A stretch of 64,000 bases of DNA from Xanthomonas sp. 3793 (GTDB lineage Bacteria > Pseudomonadota > Gammaproteobacteria > Xanthomonadales > Xanthomonadaceae), in NCBI RefSeq assembly GCF_024806835.1, contig NZ_JANTYU010000009.1:1-64000 (forward strand). Reading direction: 5' to 3'. Numbering within the stretch: the stretch's first letter is position 1; every line of letters starts with the position of its first letter. The position numbers were made by a program, and so were the translations under genes. The notes below the pieces were generated by a model. That model did no database searches, was not told the origin of the DNA, and worked only from the letters and a program-made list of their open reading frames with translations. Shown here piece after piece: positions 13,718 to 60,115 of the stretch.

Positions 13718-14091
13718 CGCTTTCTCGCAGTGGGAGAACGAAGTCGTCGCTGGGCGCAACGATACGCCACATCCGACAGATCGGTTGAGCGTTGTGCCGT
13801 CCTGTCTTGACTCGCTCCAGTGGCGAGTCGCAAGATCTCCTTGCTGCGGCATATTCCGCAGCCGGGTTTAGCAGCCCGTAATCACAAGGCGCACCAGCGC
13901 CCATTGCACGATGTCGGCGCTTTTCTTTTGCCCGACGTGTCGCGTGGGCAGGCGTGCTCGCTTTACGGCGGGCGGTGCGCGGAGACCGCAAGGTCTGCCG
14001 GTTCCTTGTGACCGGTCTGCTAACCGCGCATCGTTCGCCACCCTTGTTTAGCAGCGAGGTGGCGGACTTCCTATCGCACAAGGAGTTCGAT
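13718..14091. other. Divergent intergenic region between VOC copy 1 and the SymE-type gene
   Basis: This 374-base spacer must carry the promoters of two divergent genes. I see no convincing coding sequence, operator palindrome or RNA. An AAGGAG ribosome site for the downstream gene ends the region. An antisense RNA of SymR type would lie at its right edge on the minus strand, but I cannot demonstrate one by eye. Confidence 0.4.
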
Positions 14092-14481
14092 ATGACCCGC
14101 CCCAAAGCGACTGCCCATGCACGCTCTGCATCGCGATCCAAGCGCTCTGTTGTCGCGCGTACCGGATCAAGGCAGAGCTCGGTGTGCGCCGTGACCGACA
14201 CGGAGTCGGCGGCAGATCCATCACCAGCACCCACGCCGCCCTTGCGCAAGCCCGGCTTCCGTATTCCCGAGCGGGTCACCATGAGCTGCCAGCACTACGA
14301 CGTGCGGCGGGCCGAGGATGTCGTCGGCTGCGCAGTACCCAAGCTGCGGCTGTCGGGCCGTTGGCTGGAACACTGCGGTTTCGCGGTTGGCGATGCGTTG
14401 CGGGTCACGGTGGGAAGCGGCGTGGTGTTGATCAGCCGCGTGGCGCCTGCGGTACCTACGGTGAGATCGCGCCGAAAGTGA
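14092..14481 (+). CDS. SymE-family toxin-like protein
   Basis: A 129-residue protein. Its C-terminal half (about residues 80-120: VPKLRLSGRWLEHCGFAVGD, then ALRVTVGSGVVLISR) matches the SymE toxin domain, a compact AbrB-like fold. In E. coli SymE is an SOS-induced nucleic-acid-binding toxin repressed by the antisense RNA SymR. The N-terminal 70 residues are basic, Ser/Pro/Ala-rich and probably disordered. AAGGAG lies six bases before the ATG. No LexA-like box and no antisense RNA could be established by eye, so toxin activity is an inference from the family. It may be an orphan or domesticated copy. Confidence 0.72.
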   Translation: MTRPKATAHARSASRSKRSVVARTGSRQSSVCAVTDTESAADPSPAPTPPLRKPGFRIPERVTMSCQHYDVRRAEDVVGCAVPKLRLSGRWLEHCGFAVGDALRVTVGSGVVLISRVAPAVPTVRSRRK

Positions 14482-41164: not shown

Positions 41165-41530
41165 TCAGGTGTCCTTGTCATCCACAGAAAACTCCCAGCC
41201 GTCATTCAAGCCACCCAAGGGCTTGGCCTCCACGGCCAGCTCTTCCTCTAAGGCCGAAATCGCCTTGTGCGACGGCACCATGGTCGGATACACCGTCACG
41301 TCCATCGGAAACGCCGTGTTGTCCGGGTAATGGCAGCAACGCACCTTCTGCTCGAAGCGCAGCAGCATCACCGAAAATTCCAGTGCCGACTCCTTCGTGG
41401 GGAAGACCACGGAGAACGCGATCTCGCGCGGCTTCGATAGATCCACTCCTTGCTGGGCAATGTGCCAGAGGGTGTCGCCGTTATCGTCGTTAGGATACAG
41501 ATCCGGATTTCGTTGCATGGGAAGCTTCAT
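41165..41530 (-). CDS. RraB-like (ribonuclease E inhibitor B family) protein
   Basis: A 121-residue protein with PNDDNGDTLWHIAQQGVDLS, FSVVFPTKESALEF and DVTVYPTMVPSHKAISALEE, which fit the RraB/DUF1260 fold (YPNDDNGDxL start, C-terminal beta strands). RraB proteins bind RNase E and dampen RNA decay. The acidic tail (EEELAVEA, VDDKD) is consistent. A run of eight A residues precedes the ATG and no good Shine-Dalgarno is visible, so translation may be weak or begin at the ATG four codons in. RNase E binding is inferred. Confidence 0.7.
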   Translation of the reverse strand: MKLPMQRNPDLYPNDDNGDTLWHIAQQGVDLSKPREIAFSVVFPTKESALEFSVMLLRFEQKVRCCHYPDNTAFPMDVTVYPTMVPSHKAISALEEELAVEAKPLGGLNDGWEFSVDDKDT

Positions 41531-41860
41531 TTTTTTTGACCAATTTACCGAGGAGGAATCCTAGCGCCCGGCTTGTGTGGGGCCTGTCATTAACTGCGTG
41601 CATGAAATCAAATGGTGTCAGAATGCCCTTCGAGCTCACTATATTTCTGGCGATCACACCATTTTCCGCTTCATCAGCAGGCGCATTCGAGTCGCCTAAG
41701 TATTCCCCTGAGCTGAAATGTCTGCATGTTAATACCTACATCTCTGCGACACGGCATTGATAACCGAAAGGGCGCGAAGACTCCAGGCCTGCACCTTGAC
41801 TCCTCCATGCATCGGTAGCACACTCCTTCACGGAGCGTAGCAACTCCACAGATAGCGGTG

Positions 41861-41886
41861 CCACCCCCGTCAAGCGGTGGTTTTTT
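41861..41886 (+). terminator. Stem-loop plus T6, probable rho-independent terminator
   Basis: CCACC (41861-41865), a ten-base loop and GGTGG (41876-41880), followed immediately by six T. A smaller hairpin (CTCC/GGAG, 41823-41834) lies 27 bases upstream. The stem is short but GC-rich. It would end a transcript coming from the left, or act as an attenuator ahead of the structured element at 41905. Confidence 0.45.
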
Positions 41887-41904
41887 GTGCCTGATGTTTG
41901 GGCG

Positions 41905-42000
41905 CATGCTCGGCGTTTCCACGTCGGGAGGGCGGCGAATACAACACCCGCAAGGGAAATAAGCCCGCCGGCTATCTGCGGTTGCTAACCTCCCGGCATC
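41905..42000 (+). ncRNA. C4-like antisense RNA (putative)
   Basis: The sequence folds into a closing stem GTCGGGAGG (41923-41931) with CCTCCCGGC (41989-41997), nine pairs including one G-U. Inside is GGGCGG/CCCGCC enclosing the tetraloop hairpin CCC-GCAA-GGG (41947-41956), then a second small arm. This primary sequence and layout match my memory of the C4 antisense RNA of phages P1 and P7 and prophage relatives, which represses an adjacent gene by pairing near its ribosome site. A gene with GGAGGAG starts 43 bases further on, and CTAACCTCC in the RNA is complementary to GGAGG. Family assignment is from recall, not a covariance search. Confidence 0.6.
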
Positions 42001-42020
42001 CCGCCGCATCGTGCGGCGGG
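42000..42020 (+). promoter_or_regulatory. Leader hairpin before the XAC0095-like gene
   Basis: A perfect stem CCCGCCGCA (42000-42008) with TGCGGCGGG (42012-42020) and a three-base loop, ending ten bases before the GGAGGAG ribosome site. It abuts the C4-like element. It could be a target site or a translation-control structure for the downstream gene. Confidence 0.55.
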
Positions 42021-42042
42021 AGCCTGTTCCGGAGGAGTGAGC

Positions 42043-42297
42043 ATGGAGCAGTCTCTGTTCGGGTATTACCTGTTGCCGGAAAACGCGCAGCTTCGGTTGC
42101 TGCAAACGCGCGATCATTTGCGCTTCCTGGCGACGCTGGCGCAGCCAAGTGCAACCATCGAGAGTCATTTCAATGAGCCGCACGTGAGCCTGAATGCACT
42201 TGCATTCTGCTTTGATCTGTTGGCTGAGCAGTTGGAAAACGTGTTGAACCAGACGCTGACGCCCGATGATTTTCTAGGACCTAACTTGACGCAGTAG
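42043..42297 (+). CDS. XAC0095-like small protein
   Basis: An 84-residue protein (GYYLLPENAQLRLLQTRDHL, FLATLAQPSA, ALAFCFDLLAEQLENVL) that resembles the XAC0095 family of small helical proteins restricted to xanthomonads; the family has no known function. A very good GGAGGAG ribosome site lies seven bases before the ATG. The gene lies just downstream of a putative C4-like antisense RNA and a hairpin, so it is probably regulated at translation. In phages C4 controls an antirepressor-type gene, but nothing in this protein suggests that role. Confidence 0.7.
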   Translation: MEQSLFGYYLLPENAQLRLLQTRDHLRFLATLAQPSATIESHFNEPHVSLNALAFCFDLLAEQLENVLNQTLTPDDFLGPNLTQ

Positions 42298-42316
42298 CGG
42301 CGGCAAGATCGGGGGG

Positions 42317-42345
42317 CTGGCACCCCAAGGTGCCCAGCCCGCAGT
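42317..42345. terminator. Hairpin between convergent genes
   Basis: GGGCTGGCACC pairs with GGTGCCCAGCCC with one bulged base. It lies in the 65-base gap between the XAC0095-like gene and the convergent lipoprotein gene, so it may serve both as a terminator. No T-run. Confidence 0.5.
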
Positions 42346-59765: not shown

Positions 59766-60115
59766 TTAAAATCCTTTAAATTAATTTAAACATCCGTTTA
59801 GTTACAGAGGGCTCTGCAACAAATTACAATTAGCAGCGATATCATTAATTTTTTGTGTTTTTTAAGTTAAACACAGATAAAGTTTGGCCGCGTGCATACA
59901 AAGCACGTTCTGGCTGCAAAAAAAAGGATCGGGCACAAGGCCCGATCCCTTCGAAAACCGGGACAAGCCCGGTGGACAATGAGTGGCACAGCTTCCGACT
60001 GACATCGGACGCCGGCATGTTAACGAGACTTTCACGTTAAAGCAATACTTTAATTTTACCTGCTCAAATTATTGATTTTGTTCGACAAACGCATACTGAG
60101 CAATAGCACCGGCAC
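59766..60115. other. Intergenic region with the pyrF terminator
   Basis: 350 bases. The left part is strongly AT-rich (promoter of the secreted-protein gene). The minus-strand terminator at 59918-59948 lies 168 bases past the pyrF stop, so the pyrF transcript has a long 3' end. No gene is supported. Confidence 0.5.
59918..59948 (-). terminator. Rho-independent terminator of the acid phosphatase-pyrF transcript
   Basis: On the minus strand GGATCGGGC (59948-59940), a five-base loop and GCCCGATCC (59934-59926) are followed directly by eight T (59925-59918). This is a textbook terminator. It is 168 bases downstream of pyrF. Confidence 0.9.

Follow-up and report, generated by a model that had tools for sequence, protein, structure and literature searches.

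An sRNA-Xcc1-family RNA upstream of an XAC0095-like gene in Xanthomonas sp. 3793 as a probable C4-type antisense unit directed at its own leader

Introduction

What does the small structured RNA that lies immediately in front of an XAC0095-like gene in Xanthomonas sp. 3793 act on? The gene and the RNA are located in a stretch of 64,000 nucleotides (contig NZ_JANTYU010000009.1, assembly GCF_024806835.1, positions 1 to 64,000 of the forward strand), which is called the window here and to which all positions refer unless another source is named. An initial interpretation of the bare letters (the sequence-only reading) described the RNA as a C4-like antisense RNA that blocks translation of the neighbouring gene by pairing close to its start. 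The C4 RNA of phages P1 and P7 controls the phage antirepressor operon. The RNA family to which the element was assigned in this study, sRNA-Xcc1, is reportedly under HrpG/HrpX control. It was described as an integron-encoded trans-acting sRNA, and a 2025 paper placed it in front of symE in the cassettes of integrons (PMC12444791); both sRNA-Xcc1 and its link to symE are already known. An 88-nt RNA was reported for the X. campestris member of the family on the basis of Northern and RACE analyses (PMC2996969), and predicted targets of sRNA-Xcc1 are already in print (PMC2996969, PMC12189769).

Results

The RNA and its family

The Rfam covariance model of RF02221 (sRNA-Xcc1) matched positions 41923–42005 of the plus strand with 72.8 bits (gathering score 53, E 2.5e-11). 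The closing stem described in the sequence-only reading is present (41923–41931 with 41989–41997, nine pairs, one of them U-G), as are the CCC-GCAA-GGG hairpin, the perfect nine-pair hairpin with the loop TCG at 42000–42020 (+) and the GGAGGAG ribosome binding site, read from the sequence at 42031–42037 (+). The inner GGGCGG/CCCGCC arm does not pair antiparallel over its full length as it was written, but GGCGG and CCGCC could pair, and the Rfam alignment pairs GGC with GCC. The hairpin at 42000–42020 begins inside the Rfam match, in its last bases, and may mark the 3′ end of the RNA or serve as a spacer in the leader of the gene; hairpins resembling it come after the RNA at other XAC0095 loci (read by eye, uncounted). 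The stretch 41898–42040 folds no better than its dinucleotide shuffles (z = −0.93, 29 of 200 shuffles equally good), so that the hairpins alone are no proof of an RNA; the proof is given by the covariance model. Compensatory changes in the stems were found among distant relatives (8 of 14 pairs, 23 sequences), whereas among close relatives a double change occurred in only 1 of 19 pairs of the alignment described below.

Copies of RF02221 were present in all 35 Xanthomonas genomes searched. Xanthomonas sp. 3793 itself carries five copies, together with three XAC0095 genes. With this genome included, the RNA was found in at least 74 of 247 genomes and at least 22 of 54 genera of a sample of the family and in 26 of 369 genomes of a sample of the class (12 above the cut-off). 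The Xanthomonas sRNA sX14 (RF02233, 119.2 bits) is located elsewhere in the window, at 59919–60010 on the minus strand.

The family name C4 had to be given up for this element, since the Rfam C4 model produced no hit at E ≤ 10 in 41800–42320. Membership in RF01695 was also rejected for the family at large: no C4 match was listed at E ≤ 0.5 on 19 RF02221-bearing sources and, in the reverse test, a model built from 23 RF02221-type RNAs gave no hit at E ≤ 10 on 15 C4-bearing sources.

The leader and its target words

The decisive element lies at 41832–41886, just outside the coordinates given in the sequence-only reading. The loop word of the RNA, CTATCTG (41972–41978, +; b′ in the P1 naming), is the reverse complement of the b1-like target CAGATAG at 41849–41855 (+), and its tail word, GTTGCTA (41981–41987, +; a′), matches the a1-like target TAGCAAC at 41838–41844 (+). 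Both targets are assigned by sequence match and covariation, and the loop and tail matches are colinear in the leader. A consensus fold of 56 leaders (L228 and L054 left out) placed a 5′ hairpin, GGAG...CTCC, at 41832–41847 (+).

The leader is probably transcribed from the conserved TTGAC box at 41796, where TTGACT (41796–41801, +) forms a −35-like element, followed after 17 nt by a weak putative −10-like element, CACACT (41819–41824, +), assigned by its position; other loci often show CAATCT or CAACCT there, as read by eye. The TTGAC box occurred 36–39 nt 5′ of the leader GGAG in 143 of 148 loci, compared with 23 of 1375 control windows, and a generic promoter scan made no call at the box. 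Between the leader and the RNA, CCACC...GGTGG followed by TTTTTT resembles an intrinsic terminator (41861–41886, +). The terminator scan found one such site where 1.0 was expected by chance, so that the support for this hairpin comes from its conservation in the alignment.

Among the 35 Xanthomonas genomes there were 190 RNA hits, 160 of them unique, of which 159 could be parsed (all except L059). An exact match to the loop word was found within the 200 nt upstream of the own RNA in 145 of these 159 loci, while 2000 leader swaps gave a mean of 16.9 and a maximum of 30. The tail word was matched exactly in the own leader at 153 of the 159 loci (swaps: mean 66.0, maximum 86), and both words at 143. 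The 7-mer complementary to the loop mostly starts 74–85 nt 5′ of the RNA. As many as 21 different loop words occur in the set, and leaders of loci with another word contained the match in 770 of 23,130 comparisons. The upstream region has been replaced in three of the 14 loci lacking an exact loop match, and the rest match partly. The leader pattern was found at five places in the genome of Xanthomonas sp. 3793 and, when reversed, at none; the five leaders precede the five RNAs of that genome and each bears the loop word of its own RNA, although the pattern misses the diverged leader L008.

Covariation was evaluated in an alignment that comprised 58 sequences. For Xanthomonas, only the 152 loci whose tail is matched exactly were eligible, and 47 non-redundant ones were kept; L012, which has the integron form, L214, which is interrupted by N, and the decayed second copies of L033 and L104 were then removed. 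From other genera, 15 of 22 loci were used and the seven of the integron form (L217–L222, L224) were left out. The seven loop pairs were intact in 98.3% of the cells (73.8% after shuffling) and showed 92 double changes (22.0) and a score of 0.665 (0.169). When the loop partner was slid by 1–3 columns, at most 53.9% remained intact and the score reached 0.128. Loop and tail together gave 98.5% (80.8%), 133 double changes (36.3) and a score of 0.468 (0.126), a joint count weaker than that of the loop by itself and partly selected in its tail half because the rows were chosen by tail match; the loop half, which was not selected for matching, provides the fair test. The pairing of the loop and tail of the RNA with the words of its own leader is thus well supported by these comparisons.

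Possible action of the RNA on read-through

As the words targeted by the RNA lie upstream in the leader, its action is to be expected at the leader and terminator and not at the ribosome binding site of the XAC0095-like gene. Drawing on an RNA family, target words, covariation, architecture, phage relatives and gene association that have all been brought out by sequence comparison, we consider it likely that the element is an antisense unit of the phage immunity type which has been domesticated and which acts on its own leader and terminator. The order of the unit would be promoter, target leader, terminator, antisense RNA and gene. Most transcripts would stop at the terminator, and the read-through message would carry the RNA of about 83 nt together with the XAC0095-like gene. 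The released RNA would then pair by its loop and tail with the two leader words, in its own leader or in any leader with the same words, and would limit further expression of the unit. Release of the RNA and its action in trans are suggested by the 88-nt RNA of X. campestris, the terminator between leader and RNA, the P1 system and the words common to both partners in all eight divergent pairs described below.

The most likely role of the RNA is to control read-through in its own leader: the pairing is well supported, whereas the sign and the mechanism of the regulation are our inference. Pairing would presumably lower read-through, with the XAC0095-like gene as the regulated output. In equilibrium folding of 53 of the 56 leaders, the mean terminator probability was 0.907 with the target sites free and 0.927 with the sites blocked, which is no switch, so that the folding does not fix the direction of regulation. 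According to the same model, a CGG/CCG hairpin that is conserved in the nascent leader could be a weak candidate antiterminator; its probability was 0.26 with the sites free and 0.22 with the sites blocked.

That the terminator forms either way in folding, and that the leader has a conserved promoter box and a terminator of its own, would also suit a decoy: the terminated leader would be a short RNA soaking up the antisense RNA, and leader transcription would relieve silencing. We regard this as unlikely, since the form found in the window has no downstream target, and a decoy could relieve silencing only if the RNA acted on other loci. A cis-acting leader, in which the loop and tail pair with the leader within one read-through transcript and tune XAC0095 expression with no separate RNA, is rather improbable. 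It would agree with the data for the window, which all concern one strand and one likely transcript, and covariation cannot separate pairing in cis from pairing in trans; however, with a terminator-like hairpin in between, most leaders should be terminated ahead of the RNA, an RNA of 88 nt has been reported for the family (PMC2996969), and in many relatives and phages a second match lies close to the ribosome binding site of the next gene, as it does for P1 C4.

The view that sRNA-Xcc1 acts in trans as a general virulence sRNA, on many targets among mRNAs or in the plant, draws on HrpG/HrpX control, as given in the title of Chen 2011, and on the predicted targets in print. As an account of the present unit it is very improbable because the free-to-pair loop and tail covary with the own leader, with which extra targets would still be compatible. 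In Xylella fastidiosa Temecula1, five sRNA-Xcc1 homologues lie in a row at 1,313,466–1,315,082 of that genome, 381–386 nt apart, and four of them were reported in vesicles, with plant targets predicted (PMC12189769); these homologues may have their own leaders as targets rather than plant ones.

The sequence-only reading had placed the target downstream, at the GGAGG of the ribosome binding site and in the hairpin at 42000–42020. On paper CCTCC and GGAGG form 5 bp and GCGGCG allows 6 bp, both short and the first one generic. Pairing of this kind was rejected for the window, as the longest downstream run of loop and tail was 5 nt. Exact downstream loop matches were found in only 4 of the 159 loci, all of the integron-type SymE form, which in our view is the cassette named "symE and sRNA-Xcc1" in PMC12444791; no exact second site similar to a2/b2 of P1 was found in the other 155 Xanthomonas loci, the window included. 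The chromosomal forms therefore seem to have lost a2/b2 and to have kept a1/b1. A C4 RNA proper that blocks translation of the XAC0095-like gene can hardly be the explanation, considering the lack of a C4 score and of exact downstream matches in 155 of 159 loci, and the fact that the 5-bp match, the longer GCGGCG one aside, is to a generic Shine-Dalgarno sequence and lies within the closing stem of the RNA.

Comparison with C4 and other systems

In the P1 record the order is promoters, putative a1 and b1, C4, a2, b2, icd and ant1/2, with a terminator-like stretch, CCGCA...TGCGGTATTTTTG, between b1 and C4; a1, a2 and b2 match C4 exactly and the listed b1 does so except for one end base. The promoter, the a1/b1 sites, the terminator-like stretch and the RNA of the window follow each other in the same order as those of P1/P7 C4 (RF01695), and, as in C4, two unpaired words of the RNA are complementary to a1/b1 sites that lie downstream of the promoter and upstream of the RNA. 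RF02221 further resembles C4 in its loop-plus-tail pairing, in having a closing stem, a tetraloop hairpin and a target-loop hairpin, and in its use with antirepressor genes in relatives. It differs in a conserved AATACAA/GAATA internal loop. The window element, unlike C4, has no a2/b2 at the ribosome binding site, where many phage and distant relatives have second sites, and its next gene belongs to the XAC0095 family instead of encoding an antirepressor.

The true C4 loci of Xanthomonas (30 loci with 23 unique RNAs) had complementary runs of at least 7 nt upstream in 22 and downstream in 23 of the 23 (swaps: mean 7.8, maximum 15). Since these C4 RNAs and P1 C4 show the same target layout, RF02221 is, judged by sequence, an RNA that works like C4. 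The idea of a C4-type antisense device domesticated from a phage thus holds in terms of layout, leader pairing and phage relatives.

A true C4 RNA is also present in the window (RF01695, 75.2 bits, 13961–14045), within a unit at 13868–14481 (+) that has the full P1 layout: a1 at 13868–13874, b1 at 13882–13889, a terminator-like hairpin and then C4, followed by a2 at 14048–14054 and by b2 at 14077–14083 over the ribosome binding site of a SymE-like ORF (14092–14481; PF08845, 37 bits, cut-off 29). This C4 RNA is, by its layout, a probable keeper of a SymE-type gene.

Other known systems resemble the unit in part. The published form of RF02221 differs in that the accounts consulted describe neither C4-type leader targets nor an XAC0095 link. 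The c4-a1b1 motif (Weinberg 2010, PMC2864571), given there for gamma-proteobacteria and phages and with no Rfam accession, points by its name to the a1b1 region. SymE-like genes are shared with the SymE/SymR type I toxin–antitoxin system, in which SymR is described as encoded opposite symE, whereas the RF02221 RNA lies upstream of the SymE-like gene on the same strand. The C4-like sRNAs of Acinetobacter baumannii, for which targets were proposed, are similarly many, chromosomal and phage-derived with a variable target-specificity part, but unlike RF02221 they are described as matching the Rfam C4 motif (PMC5320573).

Phages and distant relatives

RF02221 RNAs above the cut-off occur in two named phages beside annotated antirepressor genes, which bears out the phage link that had been proposed, and the core of the motif is found in viral contigs. 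Phage Smp131 carries the RNA with 73.5 bits; a gene annotated as anti-repressor (as hypothetical protein in a second record) overlaps it as annotated, and each word occurs on both sides of the RNA, the downstream copies lying at an AGGAG (read by eye). In Bordetella phage IFTN1 (68.1 bits) the match is followed after about 70 nt by the start of the annotated antirepressor gene. A similar RNA, found by blastn and not scored by the model, precedes a KilA-N gene in Acinetobacter phage 4316. No RF02221 match was found in the P1 genome.

The core motif was present in at least 120 stretches of viral contigs. Among the matches listed, there were 124 cores, 110 of them unique with flanks and 84 with a following ORF. 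Runs of at least 7 nt were found upstream of 79 of the 110 listed unique cores (swaps 25.6), downstream of 85 (swaps 23.3) and on both sides of 70, the other 40 not matching on both sides. One cluster contains 65 of the 84 listed ORFs, and its single member scanned against Pfam has a Bro-N domain. In 28 distant loci, 14 of which score below the RF02221 cut-off, such runs occurred upstream in 25 (swaps: mean 6.4, maximum 14) and downstream in 18 (mean 5.0, maximum 13).

XAC0095 and SymE genes associated with the unit

The ORF behind the RNA (42043–42297, +) encodes a small protein of 84 aa which was assigned to the XAC0095 family as expected (NF047335, 79 bits, cut-off 34, E 2.1e-22). The founder of this family is said to interact with HrpG (PMC2883993). 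An AlphaFold model based on six sequences shows two helices with medium confidence (pLDDT 71.6, pTM 0.49) and is too plain for a structure search; no match to XAC0095 was found in PHROGs. An RraB-like ORF (PF06877, 75.7 bits) adjoins the unit on the opposite strand at 41165–41530 (−).

The co-occurrence of the element with XAC0095-family genes was confirmed in the 35 Xanthomonas genomes, where a listed RF02221 RNA lies 60–89 nt upstream of at least 64 of the 87 XAC0095 hits (three of the 87 being below the family cut-off). The other 23 comprise six genes with a leader and no RNA, two remnants, 12 with an unrelated upstream region and three that belong to two loci with an RNA that is either present or interrupted by N. 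XAC0095 therefore does not need the RNA, as shown by the 12 unrelated upstream regions and the six leaders without it. The terminator T run is broken in all six of the latter (L008, L042, L056, L058, L066, L276). Two of the three XAC0095 genes of Xanthomonas sp. 3793 directly follow an RF02221 RNA, and the third is preceded by the diverged leader L008, which is of the same kind and has a word that matches none of the five RNAs of this genome exactly. Two Rhodanobacter units (L282:6975–7577 and L284:6807–7475) encode proteins of 201 and 223 aa which align with XAC0095 at 33–34% identity, so the link between the unit and XAC0095 extends beyond Xanthomonas.

SymE-like genes are the commonest neighbours of the Xanthomonas RNAs. 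Behind the 159 unique RNAs, a SymE-like gene was found in 97 cases, an XAC0095 gene in 51 and neither in 11, most of the last being cut short or interrupted; these classes come from profiles built on two typed seeds, the SymE calls of L206 and L207 being weak (21 bits), and the SymE-like class was checked against Pfam on four representatives, the neighbour of the window's C4 RNA included. Three layouts occur: the RNA followed by a SymE-like ORF, by an XAC0095-like and then a SymE-like ORF (in L025 with 44.9 and 59.4 bits, respectively), or by XAC0095 alone as in the window.

Divergent pairs and words within genomes

Eight divergent XAC0095/SymE-type pairs were found (L033, L036, L037, L099, L104, L112, L124, L144), with RNA starts 358–364 nt apart. 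The loop word is common to both partners in all eight, CTGTGTG in four and CTGTCTG in four, and the RNA on the SymE side has a decayed 5′ part in each of them. One side carries XAC0095; a SymE domain was found on the other side in three, and in the remaining five that stretch is too short for a domain call, its ORF beginning with the same ATGCGTCG. Descent from a common ancestor or gene conversion may be the source of the likeness of the words.

Pairs of units with the same loop and tail within one genome numbered 4 of 378, compared with 13.8 expected (none of 2000 permutations as low), and pairs with the same loop 19, compared with 28.2 (3% of permutations as low). After stratification by lineage and tail word, 4 were found and 8.9 expected, with 5% of 3000 permutations as low, and the rarity of word repeats is accordingly taken as suggestive and is not claimed.

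Discussion

The literature searched, as far as its accessible parts go, contained no description of sRNA-Xcc1 as an RNA of the C4 type that targets leaders, and no link between it and XAC0095. Likewise, no connection of symE with a C4 antisense RNA or of sRNA-Xcc1 with an antirepressor was found in that literature, which did not include the 2011 sRNA-Xcc1 paper and the P1 originals. The sRNA-Xcc1, which has been studied as a virulence sRNA with predicted targets, gains a concrete and testable candidate target, its own leader, and RF02221 is joined to the C4 type of phage antisense control via named phages with an annotated antirepressor. The route suggested by these findings leads from a phage lysogeny device to a regulator on the chromosome that controls SymE-like and XAC0095-family genes. 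The matched words make a clean swap experiment possible.

A broader proposal, which we offer tentatively and with the balance somewhat against it, is that Xanthomonas carries a set of domesticated phage immunity units with private words and that the XAC0095-like proteins are partners of SymE-like toxins. If this is true, each private word would be common to an antisense RNA and its own leader and would differ from those of the other units in the cell. Every XAC0095-like or SymE-like gene would then have a control of its own, and a unit entering the cell with a word already in use would be silenced.
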